Position numbers and translations under genes: made by a program. Source: a virus. From it: a stretch of 44,815 nucleotides of DNA. The stretch is taken from IMG/VR virus record IMGVR_UViG_3300018082_000014, positions 1 to 44,815 of that record; one strand, 5' to 3'. The notes below the pieces were generated by a model, which saw only the letters and a list, made by a program, of their open reading frames with translations, made no database searches and had not been told where the DNA came from. This document shows, in pieces, positions 1,536-19,750 of this stretch (the stretch's first letter is position 1; each line of letters begins with the position of its first letter).

Positions 1536-2824
1536 TGCCATCCACTACTGTACTCGCTATCATCGAGGAATGCGCCAGAAGAATCCAGGCACTACGTCAG
1601 GGTACACTTACTGCTGCCAGTGCAACCGCACTGACTGCCAACAACAGCCCCGCGTTCCGTACCAACCGTACCAACGCTGACCAGGCTGGAGGCTATGCCG
1701 GAGCGGAGTTTATGTCCACTAGCGGCACTGCGCCAGCCCCAAACCCTAATGGTGTTAGCGCGCATGTATGGTCCACTGGTGTTCTCACTCCAGCTATTGA
1801 CTTCACCATTACTCCTGGCAGTACCAGTACCTTCGACCTCTTCCTGCGTGGCGTAACTAGGACTATGCTCTTGGATGCGCTCAACAAAGCCTTCCGTGAT
1901 ATGCGCTATACAGACCGCATACCATTATCCTATGTGGATGATGCTGATATGGAAGCGAGTGGTGTGACAGCCTGGACTGACTCAGGCGCAACCTCTACCA
2001 AAGTAGCTGGCCGCAATGGTCGCCAGGCCCTTCGTGTTACCAATGTTGGGGCTGGTGACTTTACCCGTACCGCTAGCCTGGATGTAGACCCAACCTATGC
2101 TAATCAGTGGCTCATAGCCTGCTATGTACGCGCAGCCACTGGGACAGCCCGCCTCATCGCTTATGACGCCACAAACAGTGCTAACATTGACACCGAGGAC
2201 TGGACCATGCGTGGCTGGGGCTTCATATGGATGGTCATATCACTTCCCACTACATGTGAGCTACTCCAAGTACGGCTATCAGGAGTAGCCGCACCAGATA
2301 TTACAGATTGGGATGATCTAACAGTCCTCCCTATTGGTGCTACTGACATATTCCTCCCCGCCTTTGTGGAGGACCGTCAGCAACTACGGCGTGTTTGGCG
2401 TAGACAGCTCAACAACCAGGCCGAAACTCCAGGTTTTCGCCCCTACTACTGGTATGACATACTCCCTAACCAGTCCAGCCAGGGTGTATCACCTGACTTC
2501 GCGCCTTCACCGTACCGTCTAGAGATCAAACCAGGTGTCAATGCGCCTATCTATATAGACGTAGATCGGCCATACCCCAGCGTCAGTGCTAATACCGACA
2601 CTACCTTTGGATCGCGCAACTGGATAGAACAGGTAACCCTGGTAAATCTACTCACTGACCTAAGTTCGCGCCCAGGACAGGAAGTAACCACTTGGAAGGC
2701 ACGCCTAGCTGAGGAACAGAAGCGTCTATATCGCATGAATGTCAGGCGCAGTGAGCCAATCGGTATCAGGTATGGGTTCTCATCGCCTCCTAACACTCCC
2801 ATATATTCTGGCGATAGATACTAG
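1535..2824 (+). CDS. head-tail adaptor-like virion protein with a beta-sandwich insert
   Basis: 429 residues from a GTG that shares its G with the preceding stop. The N-terminus starts with a helix of the type LAIIEECARRI. A second helical block (LLDALNKAFRDMRY, about residues 110-123) is followed by roughly 125 residues of beta-rich sequence with the pattern of carbohydrate-binding beta-sandwiches, ending near DDLTVLP. The remainder (FLPAFVEDRQQLRRVWR onward) is again mixed alpha/beta. A helical protein placed directly before a ~780-residue protein resembles the T7 order gp11 adaptor then gp12 nozzle. That homology is inferred from size and order, not from a motif. Confidence 0.55.
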   Translation: MPSTTVLAIIEECARRIQALRQGTLTAASATALTANNSPAFRTNRTNADQAGGYAGAEFMSTSGTAPAPNPNGVSAHVWSTGVLTPAIDFTITPGSTSTFDLFLRGVTRTMLLDALNKAFRDMRYTDRIPLSYVDDADMEASGVTAWTDSGATSTKVAGRNGRQALRVTNVGAGDFTRTASLDVDPTYANQWLIACYVRAATGTARLIAYDATNSANIDTEDWTMRGWGFIWMVISLPTTCELLQVRLSGVAAPDITDWDDLTVLPIGATDIFLPAFVEDRQQLRRVWRRQLNNQAETPGFRPYYWYDILPNQSSQGVSPDFAPSPYRLEIKPGVNAPIYIDVDRPYPSVSANTDTTFGSRNWIEQVTLVNLLTDLSSRPGQEVTTWKARLAEEQKRLYRMNVRRSEPIGIRYGFSSPPNTPIYSGDRY

Positions 2825-2828
2825 TTAG

Positions 2829-5165
2829 ATGGCTGGTAACGATCCAGTCCTGCATCGCACTACCATATCTCTCAATGGTATAGAGTACGCTCTAGCCAGG
2901 AGAGAAGTCCTGGAGCGTGTAGGCCGAGCTCGTTCCTGGCAGGTAGAACGTCTACCTACCTCCACCAAGATGGAGCCACGCCCAGATGTGCGCCAGGGGA
3001 GCCTTCCTGACGAGTACATTATTACCCTGGACGACTTTACTCGTGGTGTAGCGGGGGATCATGATAATATTCCTGGCACATACTTCGCATCCAACCGCCT
3101 AATAGGATACGATGGTATCCTTACCTCTATAGGCTCCTCCAACAGCTTCCAGGACACTAATGCCTGGGGTGCTGACCCAGCCATATTCCTGTGGTTCAAC
3201 TATGAACTATTCCTACTCGCTGGTCGTTACGCATTTAGGTTTACCTCTATTGGTGTACCTATCACTGATAAGGACTTCGGGTCAGGCAATTCAGTTACCG
3301 ACGCAATAGTCCATAATAACGAGATCGTGGCAGGCTTTGGTGGCAGCACCAAGAAGATTGAGACTCGCAACACAGCTGGAACCTGGACCGAAGCCACTGA
3401 CGCTGTTTTTGTTGACTACTTTGCCCGTGTAGAAGCTCGGCTATGGCGTGCTACTGCCACCAATGAGGTCAGTAACATAGGCCCTACTGACAACCCACTC
3501 ACATTGGCTAACTGGTCCTCGGGTATCACAGTCGGCGACGATGACACTCCTATCACTGACCTGAACTCCATCAATGAGCGTCTAGCTGTATCCAAGGAAA
3601 CCGGCTTCCATCTTGGTGATGCTGCTGCTATATTCCCTAATATCTTCCCTCAGATCGAGTCCATACGCGACCAGAACAATGGTAAGAACACCCTAATCAC
3701 TGGTGATGTAGTCTACTATCCTCACCGTGACGGACTACTAAGATGGACTCTGGGCGAATCGGCTGAGGAGATTGGTCTCCAGGAACTCTACAAATCAGCC
3801 GATGTACGTGATACCTTCACTCCAGGACTACGTATCTCTGCTCTTGCTCCACAGGGCCGCTATCTTTGGGCAGCTAGTGAGCCAGGACTATACCCTCGTG
3901 CTGACCCAACAGGCGTAAAACGAACCATAGACAATGAGGTTAGCTTCACCAGTGACTTAGCAGATGCTATCGACAACGACCTATCCACCCATGTCCAACT
4001 AGACTCCCAGGATACAGCTGCTAATGGTGACTACTTCTATGTGGGGCACTCTGCTGCCTTCCACAGCGTATTGTTCCAGGTATCTACCCCCAACTACATC
4101 GCGTCTGTTCTGACTGTCCAGTATTGGAGCGGTGCTGCCTGGACATCTGCCCCTGGTGATCGTCCCTTTATAGATGGCACCTCCGCTAATGGCAAGACTC
4201 TCAACAAAAGTGGTGATGTAACCTGGAGGACTCCAGCCTCCGATTGGGCGGCCTCTACTATTGATGGCACTAACGCGTTCTGGCTAAGGTTCAGCGTATC
4301 AGTAGCCCTGTCTACAGTTGTTCGTATCGGCGAGATCAGGATTGCAACCTCCAGTACCTGGACATCTGCCATATTTCGAGGTCGTCCACGTACTGCTGGT
4401 GATCCACGGCCCAAGAGTGTCATCTGGGATATGGTCATGTTGGCTGTTGCACATACCAAAGTAACAGCCTTATATGTATCTAATGATGTCTACCCATTCA
4501 GACGTGGTTCAGCTGTTGTAGCAGCCTCCAGACAGCAAGTAACCCACTGGGAACTCGCGTATAACCCCATTGATAGCTCACTGATGAGTACACCCAGTGC
4601 TGACATGTGGACTACCAAGATGGATGGTGGCCTGCCCTTTGAGCAGAAGCAGTGGACTCGCATCCGCGCCAAGATGAAAACAGTCGGTACAACCCAGGAA
4701 CTCCTCATAGGCTACCGTATGGACGAGGACTCAGCATTCACAGCCTTTATGGAACTAGATACGTCAGGTACGTATGTTGAGTCTGGTGAACTCAACGTAG
4801 CTGGTAGAGCCATACAGCTTCACCTAAACCTGGACTGGGCAGCACAAGACCTGCCACCAGAGGCGCTGGAGATAGAGATTATATTTCGCAGGCGTCCCTC
4901 GTACAAGAACGTCTACACCTGTGTCCTAGAGCTCTCCGACTATCAGTCAGGCTCCCAGGGTACTATGCCAGCAGCAGCAACTCAGTTGGATAATCTTGAG
5001 GACTTGACTGGAGCCGCACCATTCATTATGATAGACCCATTAGAGCGACGTGTTGGCGGCACCAGTGGGCTAGTCACTATATCACAGCTCCAACAGATCG
5101 AACGCGTACAAGAGGGGCTTGACTACCCTGTCACAGCCGTAGAAGTCGTATTAGCTGAGGTGTAA
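2829..5165 (+). CDS. large tail protein, nozzle (T7 gp12)-like by size and position
   Basis: 778 residues, beta-rich, with no membrane segment. An N-terminal stretch with a TLDDFTRGVAGDHDNIPGTYF pattern is typical of phage proteins that open a beta-propeller. A second beta domain with many Trp, Ser and Thr residues covers about 380-510 (for example VQYWSGAAWTSAPGDRPF) and resembles a sugar-binding module. T7 gp12 is close to this length and follows gp11, the arrangement seen here. The gene starts at ATG 4 bases after the preceding stop. Receptor binding or DNA exit through a short tail are the likely jobs; the exact family is uncertain. Confidence 0.55.
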   Translation: MAGNDPVLHRTTISLNGIEYALARREVLERVGRARSWQVERLPTSTKMEPRPDVRQGSLPDEYIITLDDFTRGVAGDHDNIPGTYFASNRLIGYDGILTSIGSSNSFQDTNAWGADPAIFLWFNYELFLLAGRYAFRFTSIGVPITDKDFGSGNSVTDAIVHNNEIVAGFGGSTKKIETRNTAGTWTEATDAVFVDYFARVEARLWRATATNEVSNIGPTDNPLTLANWSSGITVGDDDTPITDLNSINERLAVSKETGFHLGDAAAIFPNIFPQIESIRDQNNGKNTLITGDVVYYPHRDGLLRWTLGESAEEIGLQELYKSADVRDTFTPGLRISALAPQGRYLWAASEPGLYPRADPTGVKRTIDNEVSFTSDLADAIDNDLSTHVQLDSQDTAANGDYFYVGHSAAFHSVLFQVSTPNYIASVLTVQYWSGAAWTSAPGDRPFIDGTSANGKTLNKSGDVTWRTPASDWAASTIDGTNAFWLRFSVSVALSTVVRIGEIRIATSSTWTSAIFRGRPRTAGDPRPKSVIWDMVMLAVAHTKVTALYVSNDVYPFRRGSAVVAASRQQVTHWELAYNPIDSSLMSTPSADMWTTKMDGGLPFEQKQWTRIRAKMKTVGTTQELLIGYRMDEDSAFTAFMELDTSGTYVESGELNVAGRAIQLHLNLDWAAQDLPPEALEIEIIFRRRPSYKNVYTCVLELSDYQSGSQGTMPAAATQLDNLEDLTGAAPFIMIDPLERRVGGTSGLVTISQLQQIERVQEGLDYPVTAVEVVLAEV

Positions 5166-6097: not shown

Positions 6098-6754
6098 CTA
6101 CAACCATTTTATATACTGCAAGAATCTCTCTCCTATCCACTGAGTATAAGCTGGTGGGATAGCCTGAGTAAGATCATAGCCATTCATCCAGTCAATATCC
6201 ATAGCATATGCTGGGTCTGGACCAATTCTGGTTGGTTTTCTATCCCTATTACCTGCTCCCCTGCGTGGTCCTTTGCCGCCTCGTGCATACACTCCAGCGA
6301 AGTCACCTTCTGACACCGATCCCCAATGGTCACATGCTGGAGGCTTAGGTAGAGGGAACGAAGTCTCGAATAACCGGTGTCTGATAACCGACAGTTTGAA
6401 TCCAGTACCACATAGTATGGTAGGTCTGATAAGTGGCGCACCTGGCACGTTCTCAATTACATATGGAGCTCCACATATCTCTAACTTCTCCCGTATTGGG
6501 TCTATCATTCTTGGATACTTAGTCAGCAAGTTCTTATTGCGCTGAATATAGGCTTGGCATGGCGGACTGGCATGTATCGCGTCGAATCCTTCCAGTGGAA
6601 ACGTCATGGCGTTAGCCTGGATAAACGTGAATGGATAGTGTGGCTGCGGCTTGATGTCCACTCCTACGATTTCATCAAAGCCAGCATGATAGTAACCCAT
6701 TGCTGCACCTCCAGCCCCACAAAATAGATCAAGCAACTTTAGTCTGTCGGCCAC
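6098..6754 (-). CDS. DNA cytosine-5 methyltransferase
   Basis: A SAM-dependent C5-cytosine methyltransferase, 218 residues from a GTG with GGAG 8 bases upstream. A longer in-frame GTG start at 6802 would overlap the polymerase gene further. Motif I is LLDLFCGAGGAAMGY near the N-terminus, motif IV is ASPPCQ with the catalytic Cys, motif VI is ENVPGAP, an RHRLFE segment stands in the place of motif VIII, and IPPAYTQWIG resembles motif X. It is short for the family, so the target-recognition region is small. Phage enzymes of this kind modify phage DNA against host restriction. It is the last gene of the replication operon and overlaps the polymerase end by 16 bases. No cognate restriction endonuclease is nearby. 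Confidence 0.88.
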   Translation of the reverse strand: MADRLKLLDLFCGAGGAAMGYYHAGFDEIVGVDIKPQPHYPFTFIQANAMTFPLEGFDAIHASPPCQAYIQRNKNLLTKYPRMIDPIREKLEICGAPYVIENVPGAPLIRPTILCGTGFKLSVIRHRLFETSFPLPKPPACDHWGSVSEGDFAGVYARGGKGPRRGAGNRDRKPTRIGPDPAYAMDIDWMNGYDLTQAIPPAYTQWIGERFLQYIKWL

Positions 6755-8415
6755 CGTGTAAACTCCTTCACACTCACAGGCGTCCTTACTGGCCCAACCC
6801 ACTCCAGCATCTCCTCCAGGTCCTTACGTGGCCAGGGCATCTCACCAATGTTCCTGTCAAACATCAGCTCATCGTGTATCTGTACCACCATCGCCGGGCA
6901 CCAGGCCAATAGCATCTGCTCGCGTAGTGTCTCTCCAGCACTAGTCTGTATTGGATAGTTCACTGCCCTCTTGCGGACGCCTTCCTCACCTTCCTCATCC
7001 CACATTATGAGCATCTTTCTCCCTCCCACTGTCTCTACCTTCTCTCCTCTAACGGCTGCTTGACTTGTCCGTTGGAGCCAGGCCCAGGCTTCAGGATAAC
7101 CCTGCGACCACGCTCTTTGTATTCTTGCCGCCTCTGCCATAGATACACCAGCGGTATCAGCAATACGAGGTATACGACCACCGTAGATGATGCAAAAATT
7201 CGTGTTCTTACTTGATCTATACTGGATATCGCTGTAACCAGAGCCATAAAGCAGACGAGCTGTGTCACGATGAATGCTCTCATCATGGTCGAATACCTCC
7301 TTCATACGCTGGTCACCACTAAGATACTGTAGCTTGCGCAGTTCCAACTGGCTATCATCTACATCTACAAAGTCTCCTACGAACACATCTCTCAGCTCAT
7401 GTGGTATGTTTGTCAGGTTGTAGTCAGCACTACTGATACGAGCAGTCCTGGCGTCCAGGTTGAACCTTGTAGTAGCACGGTCATCCCCCAGCCAAGGTCC
7501 TAGATATGTATTTAGCATCGTCTGCTCGTGTCGATAGTTCAGTATGTTCTGTATGAGTGGATCACCACCGGCAAATCTCTTTAGCGTGGCATTATCTGTA
7601 GCCAGCTGTCGCTTCTTCTTAGTCATGGGCAACCAACTACCCCTGGATGCTAGTGTGTACCCTACCTGTTGTAGACTCCCAGGATTGAAGTTCAGTCCCT
7701 CACAAATGGCCTTGTTATACTGCATTTTCCTATCGTACTCAATTACATGCTTGATTACCCTGTCGTGATCCAGCTCCAGCCCTCTACGGCCCATATCGAG
7801 GAGTAGTGGTATGATCTTCATCTCGCGCTTGTAATACTCCCATGATACATCCTGCAAACCTCTATCGAGAAACCACTCATACAAGGACAACGTTATTTGT
7901 GAGTCCAGCAGACACTTACCAGCTACTATACCATAAGGTAGCTGGTCTACTCTCTTGACCTTATGCTGTTTCATCACTTTGCCCATAGGAGTAGGAGGCT
8001 GTCTATTTACCCATATCGCCATAGCATCTAATGTGGCCGGGAAGTAGTTCTCGAACCTAGACATCACTGCAGTATCCTCAATATTCGTACCATCCACGCC
8101 GTAGTCCCATAGTACGTCCAGATCATAGGGAGCATTGTGAGCTACCTTAGTTATAGAGGGATCACATAGTATGAACAGTGGCAATAGCGGTGAGTCCCAA
8201 GGCCAGTACCAGCTCTCCCTTGGCGATGTAGCGATACTCAGCCCTACTAACCTGCGGTCTTTGATGTTGACTGTTTCTACATCAAACCCAATCACATGCG
8301 TCTTTCGAATAGTGATGAGGAATTGCTCCCAGGAGTCATCAGCTGTAGCCACTGGGTCGGGGCCAAAGTATGATATGCGTCTCCCAGTTGGGATACGATC
8401 ACCTGGCTCGTTCAT
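6739..8415 (-). CDS. family A DNA polymerase with 3'-5' exonuclease
   Basis: 558 residues, a phage-type PolA with no 5'-3' exonuclease domain. Exonuclease: FDVET (D45, E47), HNAPYDLD (residues 93-100), and an Exo III-like Asp in LLDSQIT (D171) without the usual Tyr four residues earlier. Polymerase: motif A is VDDSQLELR (about 352-360), where the family usually has DYSQIELR. Motif B is YRSSKNTNFCIIYG, keeping Lys403, Phe407 and Tyr411, but Tyr399 sits where E. coli Arg754 would be. Motif C is QIHDE (H514, D515, E516). Phe at the E. coli 762 position predicts discrimination against dideoxynucleotides. It is the replicative polymerase candidate; no separate primase or ligase was recognised. Overlaps its neighbours on both sides. 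Confidence 0.93.
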   Translation of the reverse strand: MNEPGDRIPTGRRISYFGPDPVATADDSWEQFLITIRKTHVIGFDVETVNIKDRRLVGLSIATSPRESWYWPWDSPLLPLFILCDPSITKVAHNAPYDLDVLWDYGVDGTNIEDTAVMSRFENYFPATLDAMAIWVNRQPPTPMGKVMKQHKVKRVDQLPYGIVAGKCLLDSQITLSLYEWFLDRGLQDVSWEYYKREMKIIPLLLDMGRRGLELDHDRVIKHVIEYDRKMQYNKAICEGLNFNPGSLQQVGYTLASRGSWLPMTKKKRQLATDNATLKRFAGGDPLIQNILNYRHEQTMLNTYLGPWLGDDRATTRFNLDARTARISSADYNLTNIPHELRDVFVGDFVDVDDSQLELRKLQYLSGDQRMKEVFDHDESIHRDTARLLYGSGYSDIQYRSSKNTNFCIIYGGRIPRIADTAGVSMAEAARIQRAWSQGYPEAWAWLQRTSQAAVRGEKVETVGGRKMLIMWDEEGEEGVRKRAVNYPIQTSAGETLREQMLLAWCPAMVVQIHDELMFDRNIGEMPWPRKDLEEMLEWVGPVRTPVSVKEFTRWPTD

Positions 8416-16406: not shown

Positions 16407-16580
16407 CTAATAAGTACCCTCCAGTTTATAGCAACTCTCCCTTTGTAAGGGGTCGATCACTGCTCTACAAGGTGGTATGTACTGGTAATCTGACTGTTTG
16501 TACTCATACTCATTCTTAGTGTTTATCATTATGGCAGCCAGTATACCCACAAACACTATCAGCGCAATCCATACTTTCAT
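16407..16580 (-). CDS. small single-pass membrane protein after the endolysin
   Basis: 57 residues, overlapping the amidase stop by ATGA. Residues about 3-19 (VWIALIVFVGILAAIMI) are a single membrane segment, followed by a polar tail of about 37 residues with two Cys (C38, C50). An inner-membrane protein with a periplasmic tail directly after the amidase suggests an i-spanin-like or pinholin-like lysis accessory. No lipoprotein box or second overlapping spanin ORF was seen, so the exact role stays open. Confidence 0.6.
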   Translation of the reverse strand: MKVWIALIVFVGILAAIMINTKNEYEYKQSDYQYIPPCRAVIDPLQRESCYKLEGTY

Positions 16581-17041
16581 GCCGTTATCCTCGACCAGTC
16601 AAACTTCTCTCCTGGATCACTCTTCCCCACGCGTATGCCCTGTGGTGTCTGGTCATGGCCTAACACCTTATCTATGGTTGGGTACTGTCCTTTCCACCAC
16701 TGTATCAGCCTGTTCAGCTCATCATATTGCCAATCACTAAACGCATGCTCACGAGTTGGTTGAACCAGCTCTACCCCTAGTGAATATTGGTTATGTTCCT
16801 CAGCATGCCACGCCGACCACTTATCCGCTACCACCCGAGCGTGCTGTCCCTCATACCAACCTATAACTGTGTGGCTACTAGCCTGACTAGATACATTGGT
16901 AAACCAGTTCAGTGTAGCTCTATACTCCAGGTTCGTCTGCTGCCCACCTCTAGTGGAATGCACTACTATCCAGGTAATGGGTCTACCACTACGGCTGGAT
17001 GAGTTACCCAGGATGATCTCACTAAAGGTGGGCTCACCTAG
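16577..17041 (-). CDS. N-acetylmuramoyl-L-alanine amidase domain, read in the -1 frame after the glycosidase
   Basis: Amidase_2/PGRP-type zinc amidase. WIVVHSTRGG carries the first His ligand, SSHTVIG the substrate-facing strand, WHAEEHN a conserved His segment, VELVQ the core strand, and LGHDQTPQGIRVGKSDPG the second His and Asp ligands with the K.DPG catalytic region. The first canonical start in frame (GTG 16963) falls on the codon just before the metal-binding His, losing the first strand. The frame is open upstream to 17041 with family-like sequence (NSSSRSGRPITW) but no ATG, GTG or TTG. It is exactly the -1 frame relative to the gene at 17038-18003. The enzyme would cleave the amide bond between MurNAc and peptide. 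The coordinates given are the -1 frame portion. Confidence 0.82.
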   Translation of the reverse strand, partial: LGEPTFSEIILGNSSSRSGRPITWIVVHSTRGGQQTNLEYRATLNWFTNVSSQASSHTVIGWYEGQHARVVADKWSAWHAEEHNQYSLGVELVQPTREHAFSDWQYDELNRLIQWWKGQYPTIDKVLGHDQTPQGIRVGKSDPGEKFDWSRITA

Positions 17042-18003
17042 TTTGGGAGTTTCCCTATAATTGTGTCTAGGTAGTTCACCGCCTGGCCTAACTTATCCTT
17101 AGCCCTTACTACAGCATTGGCTACCTCGTTGAGTGCGAACTGTGGATCGTTACTGATGAACTGTGCACCTAGCTCAGCCTGCACGCCTAGCAACATCGCG
17201 CGGAGATCGGCCTTCTGTTGGTCTGTCACTGGAACCTCCTGTGGTATGTGTAGCTGCTCATGTAGTGACCTATACGCACTGGCCGCACCGACTGTTAGGA
17301 ACCATTTACCCCATTCCTCTTGGCCCTCCTCATAAGGTAGGATAAAGAACACCAGTGCCTCTACCCTTGGTAGTATGTTAGTCAGTACCTCTAGGTTCTT
17401 GGTAATCCCCCAGTAAGGCTGGTCGCCTGAGTAGCCGAACTCAGTTACCACCTCTCCCTCTCCAGGTAGGTACATGATTCCATCCAGGCCCTGGGTATGG
17501 TAGACATGTCCACCCTGGAAGCTACATCTCTCCCTCTCACGCATAGTCTCGCGGAGCCATAAGGCAGTATTGGAGTTGTTAGGTGCTGACTCAACCATCA
17601 GCCCTGGGCTGACCAACTTCACAGGCCACTGACCTGCTACATCTATGAGTCCTAGTAGGTTGGTCATGTACGCAGGACCTGGCCTAGTCCATCTATCTGG
17701 CCTAGTCCATCTACTCTCAGGGTGGTTAGGCTCGTTCTCCAACTCAAGCCAGTCTCCAGGTAGAACCATATGTACGCTCTGGTTGAACTCGTCCAGTAGC
17801 TGGTAAGGTGTAGGCGTCTCCCTACGAGGACGCCATAGCACTATACCACCTGTACCCATGATGTTCCTGGCTCTCTGTACATCATCAGGCCATTGCTGAG
17901 TTAGCCTGAACTTCGCTACTTTCGGGTGTAGCTCAGTGAATGCCTCCCAGCCTTCAGATGTAGTCCTGTATGGTGGCGGCGGGAACTCACAGCCCAGAAG
18001 CAT
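17038..18003 (-). CDS. glycoside-hydrolase-like (clan GH-A type) domain, N-terminal part of a split endolysin
   Basis: 321 residues. LELENEPN holds the N90-E91-P92 motif typical of the acid/base Glu in clan GH-A TIM barrels, and VVTEFGYSG supplies the likely nucleophile E188. About 70 residues after the barrel (260-320) are helical. There is no signal peptide. Next to an amidase it is best read as a muralytic glycosidase that cuts the glycan strand. The stop at 17040-17038 sits on a slippery heptamer and the amidase follows in the -1 frame, so a fusion of about 475 residues could be made. A tandem 18-base repeat near 17690-17712 duplicates RWTRP. A carbohydrate-acting enzyme unrelated to lysis is the alternative. 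Confidence 0.65.
   Translation of the reverse strand: MLLGCEFPPPPYRTTSEGWEAFTELHPKVAKFRLTQQWPDDVQRARNIMGTGGIVLWRPRRETPTPYQLLDEFNQSVHMVLPGDWLELENEPNHPESRWTRPDRWTRPGPAYMTNLLGLIDVAGQWPVKLVSPGLMVESAPNNSNTALWLRETMRERERCSFQGGHVYHTQGLDGIMYLPGEGEVVTEFGYSGDQPYWGITKNLEVLTNILPRVEALVFFILPYEEGQEEWGKWFLTVGAASAYRSLHEQLHIPQEVPVTDQQKADLRAMLLGVQAELGAQFISNDPQFALNEVANAVVRAKDKLGQAVNYLDTIIGKLPN
17041..17047 (-). promoter_or_regulatory. candidate -1 ribosomal frameshift site C CCA AAC
   Basis: The glycosidase frame reads CTC CCA AAC TAG, giving a slippery heptamer of the form X XXY YYZ directly before the stop. After a -1 slip, reading continues CTA GGT GAG into the amidase frame. Immediately downstream AGGTG and CACCT can form a hairpin with loop AGCC. 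Confidence 0.6.
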
Positions 18004-19459: not shown

Positions 19460-19750
19460 TCACTGTGCCACCTCCAGGTTAGCTAGGTACTCCAACTCCT
19501 CATTCAGTTGCTCATCATTCAGCCAGCCCTTAGGCCACTCATACACACTCCCTAGGTAGTCCAGCTCAAAGTCAGTGATCTCTTCACTGTGGAACCTCAC
19601 CGGCATGATCTCCCACAGCCCCTGCTCACCACCATAGCTGTACTGTCCCCTAATCACACTGGCTCCACGTAGGTTATGGAACCTGTATAGCTTCTGTACT
19701 CCATCTGGATCGTACCGATGAGTCTTGACCACTACTGGTTCTATAGCCAC
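19460..19750 (-). CDS. hypothetical protein, first gene behind the 19.9-kb promoter
   Basis: 96 residues from a GTG with GGAGG 6 bases upstream. Acidic and aromatic, with no Cys cluster or membrane segment. The DNA just before the start is about 79 percent identical (33 of 42 bases, ungapped) to the DNA before the zinc-ribbon gene at 21972, pointing to a duplicated leader. No family recognised. Confidence 0.65.
   Translation of the reverse strand: MAIEPVVVKTHRYDPDGVQKLYRFHNLRGASVIRGQYSYGGEQGLWEIMPVRFHSEEITDFELDYLGSVYEWPKGWLNDEQLNEELEYLANLEVAQ

Follow-up and report, generated by a model that had tools for sequence, protein, structure and literature searches.

The DNA analysed here, called the window, is a 44.8-kb virus record from IMG/VR with a G+C content of 51.5%. 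On its minus strand, the window carries two overlapping open reading frames (ORFs) that probably together code for a single two-domain lysin (Table 1). The upstream ORF is preceded by a strong Shine-Dalgarno (SD) sequence (-10.8 kcal/mol for ATG 18003), and its protein product has a probably helical tail. The second ORF codes for an amidase and lies in the -1 frame relative to the first. This frame is uninterrupted from 17092 to its stop codon at 16579-16577, and the two ORFs overlap at 17092-17038. The computed junction of a product that joins both ORFs at the end of the first is a trans-frame peptide around LPN-LGEPTFSEIILGN.

Table 1. Features of the locus, with coordinates given as positions in the window
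Feature	Coordinates	Strand	Remarks
Upstream ORF, 321 aa	17038..18003	-	Glycosidase-like by motif; ends CTC CCA AAC TAG
Slippery heptamer C_CCA_AAC	17041..17047	-	In phase with upstream ORF
TAG stop codon of upstream ORF	17038..17040	-	Abuts heptamer
Amidase_2 (N-acetylmuramoyl-L-alanine amidase), 154 codons + stop	16577..17041	-	-1 frame; PF01510, codon usage, relatives
Predicted frameshift product, 475 aa (upstream domain, linker, amidase)	16577..18003	-	Calculated; in-frame counterpart in L055
GTG after TAG	17035..17037	-	Frame 0, outside amidase frame
First ATG/GTG/TTG of amidase frame (GTG)	16961..16963	-	Val27, adjoins metal-ligand His28 (putative); -3.1 kcal/mol
Small hairpin AGGTG-AGCC-CACCT	17026..17039	-	Begins 1 nt after heptamer
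Longer hairpin	16965..17004	-	~36 nt downstream of heptamer; -16.7 kcal/mol
57-aa protein, one hydrophobic membrane-like segment	16407..16580	-	ATG overlaps amidase stop

Coding signal and start codons of the amidase frame

A first-pass annotation of this DNA had placed the amidase in the -1 frame and had proposed that its N-terminal residues are coded upstream of any ATG, GTG or TTG. Both proposals are borne out. The -1 frame matches PF01510 (E=1.4e-19, 71.1 bits versus a cut-off of 26), and the match begins at residue 19 of this frame as counted from 17041. No ATG, GTG or TTG occurs in the amidase frame before GTG 16963, which is residue 27 and has profile positions 2 to ~9 upstream of it. 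Thus, a start at this GTG would lose the first strand of the domain. Relatives of the window amidase align to it from residue 13. Residues H28, H129 and D142 are conserved in the alignments and, by analogy to AmpD, are probably the metal ligands.

Codon usage provides additional evidence. With scores built from 22 other genes, the 26 codons before GTG 16963 reach +4.0 in the amidase frame versus -16.6 and -34.1 in the other two frames, and only 0.2-0.35% of this genome's out-of-frame 26-codon segments score as high. The amidase frame is therefore coding before GTG 16963, and none of the other coding-like ORFs of the window (57 in all) carries as much coding signal ahead of its first start as the amidase ORF does. 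The best frame-switch point by this measure is 17041, with a plateau at 17092-17041. The drop in score beyond this point comes mostly from the cost of reading TAG as a codon, and so codon usage alone permits a switch ~20 nt past this position (17038 to ~17020).

None of the start candidates of the amidase frame in the window is preceded by an SD sequence (-2.3 to -3.8 kcal/mol, similar to random sequence). Stand-alone amidases, by contrast, mostly do have an SD; the median values are -8.95 kcal/mol for 66 distinct amidase starts at other loci and -6.8 kcal/mol for the genes of this phage. GTG 17037 has a value of -5.6 kcal/mol, which derives solely from a mis-spaced AGGGA. An in-frame internal start with its own SD, which is the hallmark of endolysins made as two polypeptides, was not found in the window.

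In two other genes of the window, at 19460-19750 and 6739-8415, codon usage already looks coding-like 15-25 codons ahead of the first start codon, and their starts are possibly misplaced. In a separate observation, locus L164 (G659:C173), from a genome that shares its phylum with G007, has an Amidase_2 match with one in-frame TAG.

The candidate slip site and its surroundings

When read on the minus strand, C CCA AAC at 17047-17041 is in phase with the upstream ORF and lies directly before its TAG, as the first-pass annotation had stated. In-phase heptamers of the form X_XXY_YYZ make up 0.14-0.17% of codons in the window, and of 42 ORFs the upstream ORF alone terminates in such a heptamer. The chance of finding such a heptamer directly before the stop codon is ~0.2-0.3%. 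The site was originally picked from the whole window, and therefore the rarity of the heptamer there is, taken alone, only suggestive. The heptamer is located in the overlap between the two ORFs, and the -1 ORF is coding from near the heptamer onward and has no start codon of its own, with near-cognate ATC, CTG or ATT codons being possible exceptions. In addition, a candidate shift site occurs at the same place in two relatives, as C_CCA_AAA in L017 and C_CCT_TTA in L141, which constitutes conservation among few sequences.

Neither a significant downstream structure nor an upstream SD was found at a working distance from the heptamer in the window. The small hairpin exists at 17039-17026 as previously noted, but it was rejected as a likely stimulator, since it begins only 1 nt from the heptamer and its stability does not exceed that expected by chance. 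The stability of the longer hairpin is reached by 3-4% of this genome's windows. SD sequences known to stimulate -1 shifts are located 10-14 nt upstream of the heptamer, whereas the sole SD-like element at this locus, AGGGA at 17056-17052, is 4 nt upstream. A stimulator is not strictly needed at all -1 sites. Experiments in E. coli indicate that heptamers whose A-site codon mixes a purine with a pyrimidine (AAC; UUA) are weak shifters, and that most heptamers exceed background when given a stimulator (PMC4066793). Both C_CCA_AAC of the window and the L141 heptamer, with its UUA A-site codon, fall into the weak class by this E. coli ranking, which may not be that of the host.

Related loci and the upstream domain

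No close relatives of either half of the locus were found by single-protein scans of viral and genome contigs or by tblastn of a phage collection. Relatives whose amidases are 38-45% identical were recovered with an alignment seeded with distant phage amidases, and an amidase search of 350 Chloroflexota genomes added one further relative. Additional draws of genomes yielded no relative in which both domains are close to those of the window. Scans with the terminase large subunit (TerL), the major capsid protein (MCP) and the polymerase for sister phages gave one weak MCP match only. The phage thus stands apart from other known sequences searched: its one MCP match in viral contigs is 29% identical (L001), and the TerL matches are distant, the first listed being 25.9% identical and from a virus assigned to Methanofastidiosa.

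Comparison with homologues fused in one frame, which had been suggested as a check, is provided by L055. This virus contig encodes a glycosidase-like domain, a proline-rich linker and a related amidase in a single frame of 496 aa. Just before the amidase, L055 carries a strong SD followed by an ATG (AAAGGAG-8 nt-ATG 2947) inside the fused frame (L055:2932-2949, AAAGGAGcaacacctATG), which may be an internal start that yields a separate amidase. A Chloroflexota genome (L177) has a one-frame glycosidase-like plus amidase-like arrangement when read by eye. Similarly, L051 (also L052 and L053) at 1777-3573 and L062 at 2221-3429 appear by eye to carry a lysozyme- or transglycosylase-like region followed by an amidase in one frame.

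Three split members are known, namely the window, L017 and L141. L141 (the same locus as L172) is from Chloroflexota genome G115 and adjoins a phage-like gene cluster. Over 243 aa, its glycosidase-like domain shares 52% identity with the L055 domain, its amidase is in the -1 frame, and its first ORF ends with C CCT TTA CCG TGA, which places the heptamer 3 nt before the stop codon. L017 has an upstream protein of 498 aa and also has its amidase in the -1 frame. The first ORF of L017 ends with C CCA AAA GGG TGA, again with the heptamer (C_CCA_AAA) 3 nt before the stop codon, and a second contig (L018) is identical to L017 across the available locus. In both L017 and L141, an in-frame GTG overlaps the stop codon of the first ORF (GTGA), and L017 also has an SD-like sequence ahead of TTG 2393. 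Thus, the amidases of these two loci may be made separately by reinitiation. The SD energies are -3.0 kcal/mol for the L141 amidase start and, for L017, +0.8 kcal/mol for GTG 2429 and -7.7 kcal/mol for TTG 2393.

One of 42 ORFs in the window, one of 11 in L174 (the L017 stretch) and one of 8 in L172 end with an in-phase heptamer 3 nt or less from the stop codon, and in every case this is the glycosidase-like ORF. The heptamer background across the three stretches is 0.16-0.22% per codon. We estimate that chance agreement of both relatives has a probability of ~1e-5, assuming ~0.17% per codon and two possible positions per relative, or ~4e-4 if a proline near the C-terminus is fixed by protein constraint. 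Of 154 amidase loci, 47 are preceded by an ORF relative to which the amidase is in the -1 frame, although many of these junctions are near-duplicates and fewer are independent. In this set, heptamers no more than 9 nt from the stop codon are confined to the L017 and L141 groups.

Judged by its motifs, the upstream protein might be a TIM-barrel glycosidase-like protein. It contains LELENEP at residues 86-92 (NE motif) and VVTEFG at residues 185-190 (TExG motif), and the spacing of the two is 99, versus 84-111 in relatives. In glycoside hydrolases of the clan GH-A type, these two acidic motifs belong to strands 4 (NE) and 7 (TExG) of the barrel. Searches against Pfam, PHROGs, PDB sequences and a profile of L055, L141 and L175-L177 gave no glycosidase family match for this protein, and a GH25 family search of the window was likewise negative. 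The pattern ENEPNHP gave chance matches only in viral contigs, and the upstream domain had no match in 350 Chloroflexota genomes, in a search that included no positive control. No homology was detected when the upstream proteins of L017, of L055/L141 and of the window were compared. AlphaFold models made without an alignment were unusable (pLDDT 39.9). The lengths of 321 and 475 residues originally proposed for the two products stand, whereas the certainty with which the shorter one was called a glycosidase does not, given that this name derives from motifs only.

Expression of the two frames

The best explanation for these observations, to which we assign a probability of about 0.7, is that the two ORFs make up a single lysin gene whose expression involves -1 ribosomal frameshifting. 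This reading is favoured by the geometry of the frames, the coding signal, the lack of an SD-led amidase start, the heptamers in two relatives and the fused arrangement of L055. Translation would begin at ATG 18003 and produce the glycosidase-like domain, and most ribosomes would terminate at the TAG to release the 321-aa protein. With UAG as the next codon, some ribosomes at C_CCA_AAC would slip back one base to CCC_AAA and read on into the amidase to produce the 475-aa two-domain lysin. We infer the slipping itself, the slip rate, a catalytic activity for the upstream domain and an involvement in lysis. The fusion first proposed from this site has thus gained comparative support and is still the best-supported reading, whereas the hairpin as a stimulator and the confident glycosidase assignment have been lost.

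Several alternatives that the first-pass annotation left out, involving non-canonical starts, reinitiation, or GTG 17037 together with an indel, need to be weighed against frameshifting. Two separate proteins might be made if the amidase arises by reinitiation or initiation at ATC 17017 or 17014, CTG 17011 or ATT 16978, in which case the heptamer would be due to chance. The ATC and CTG positions match the starts of relatives, which lie a few residues ahead of the N conserved in SPN/LGN, and the GTGA overlaps of L017 and L141 together with the internal SD and ATG of L055 indicate that separate amidases may be the family norm. Caution also comes from the classic example of the MS2 lysis gene, whose expression, according to titles in the reference list of PMC5009743, was initially attributed to frameshifting but subsequently to reinitiation that depends on termination. 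Nevertheless, the four candidate codons of the window lack an SD (-2.3 to -3.5 kcal/mol, in the range of random sequence), and neither a heptamer with a chance of ~0.2-0.3% nor its presence in two relatives would be explained. Non-canonical starts such as ATC, CTG and ATT are very rare, which likewise counts against separate proteins, and overall we consider this alternative unlikely.

An error of sequencing or assembly, or a real indel, might instead have split a gene that otherwise has one frame, as in L055, or the amidase might begin at GTG 17037. A single base missing between ~17034 and 17024 would put GTG 17037 in frame, and its context, GTGAGC, resembles the amidase starts of L017 and L141, where the GTG is in the amidase frame. 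Codon usage permits a switch point at 17038 to ~17020 if the cost of reading TAG is ignored, and the contig is a single metagenome record without a close relative. However, no other homology-supported break is present among the 57 coding-like ORFs, this one sits exactly between two domains and at an in-phase heptamer, and independent homologue sequences share both the -1 layout and the heptamers. GTG 17037 also lacks a correctly spaced SD, and so we regard a split of this kind as quite improbable. It is highly improbable that the amidase starts at GTG 16963 without its first strand, or that the amidase frame is unexpressed. Although GTG 16963 is the first canonical start in this frame, its use would delete the conserved strand WIVV before the metal-binding His, residues 13-26 align with relatives and show coding codon usage, and the codon has no SD and is beside a stable hairpin.

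If frameshifting is accepted for the window, its relatives permit a broader proposal. On balance, we lean toward a phage-lysin lineage, represented in uncultured phages and a Chloroflexota genome, in which a slip site at the end of the first domain would set the ratio of the stand-alone glycosidase-like protein to the fusion. The domains would be joined in this lineage by in-frame fusion (L055), by a slip site plus an overlapping GTG (L017 and L141), or by a slip site alone (the window).

The main known examples of programmed frameshifting in tailed phages are tail assembly genes. In the lambda G/GT tail assembly chaperone (Xu et al. 2004, as cited in PMC6070908), two phage frames are likewise fused when ribosomes slip by -1 on an X_XXY_YYZ heptamer close to where the first ORF ends. 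However, the lambda example involves tail genes and is conserved across tailed phages, whereas the window gene codes for a lysin and has its heptamer directly before the stop codon. The IS1- and IS3-family transposases also use -1 frameshifting (PMC4066793), with the same class of heptamer joining two ORFs, but many of these combine an A_AAA_AAG-type motif with an SD at a fixed spacing and a stem-loop or pseudoknot, which were not found in the window. Endolysins made as two polypeptides through an internal start (PMC9430671, PMC7098653, PMC12203907) resemble the proposed system in that a single gene yields two lysin products of different length. Those products share a frame and the C-terminal part, whereas in the window the shorter one would be the N-terminal domain and the longer one requires a change of frame. 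The in-frame fusions of L055 and L177, and of the lysozyme-like L051 and L062, have a similar domain order, and in L055 a related amidase, but use one continuous frame. For Streptomyces phages of cluster BI, a genome announcement predicts frameshifts near the endolysin and holin genes (PMC9671017). These are similarly proposed near lysis genes, but they are predictions only, concern neighbouring genes and do not include a described endolysin fusion.

A search of the open-access literature found no frameshifted endolysin; it returned tail-gene frameshifts, in papers that also mention endolysin, and internal starts of endolysins. To our knowledge, the window would provide the first endolysin made by programmed frameshifting if our reading is correct. 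Phages of this type would adjust the proportions of their lysis products at the ribosome, alongside the known devices of internal starts and holin timing, and would have a rare route to a lysin that couples two peptidoglycan-cutting domains. Amidases of this kind will be missed or truncated by gene callers, since the start of the domain does not coincide with any start codon.

The short gene that follows the amidase in the window is possibly part of a lysis cassette. A comparable gene at L172:4662-4850 codes for a 62-aa protein with one hydrophobic segment and is located directly 3' of the amidase. Both short proteins are candidates for holin or spanin-like components of such a cassette.
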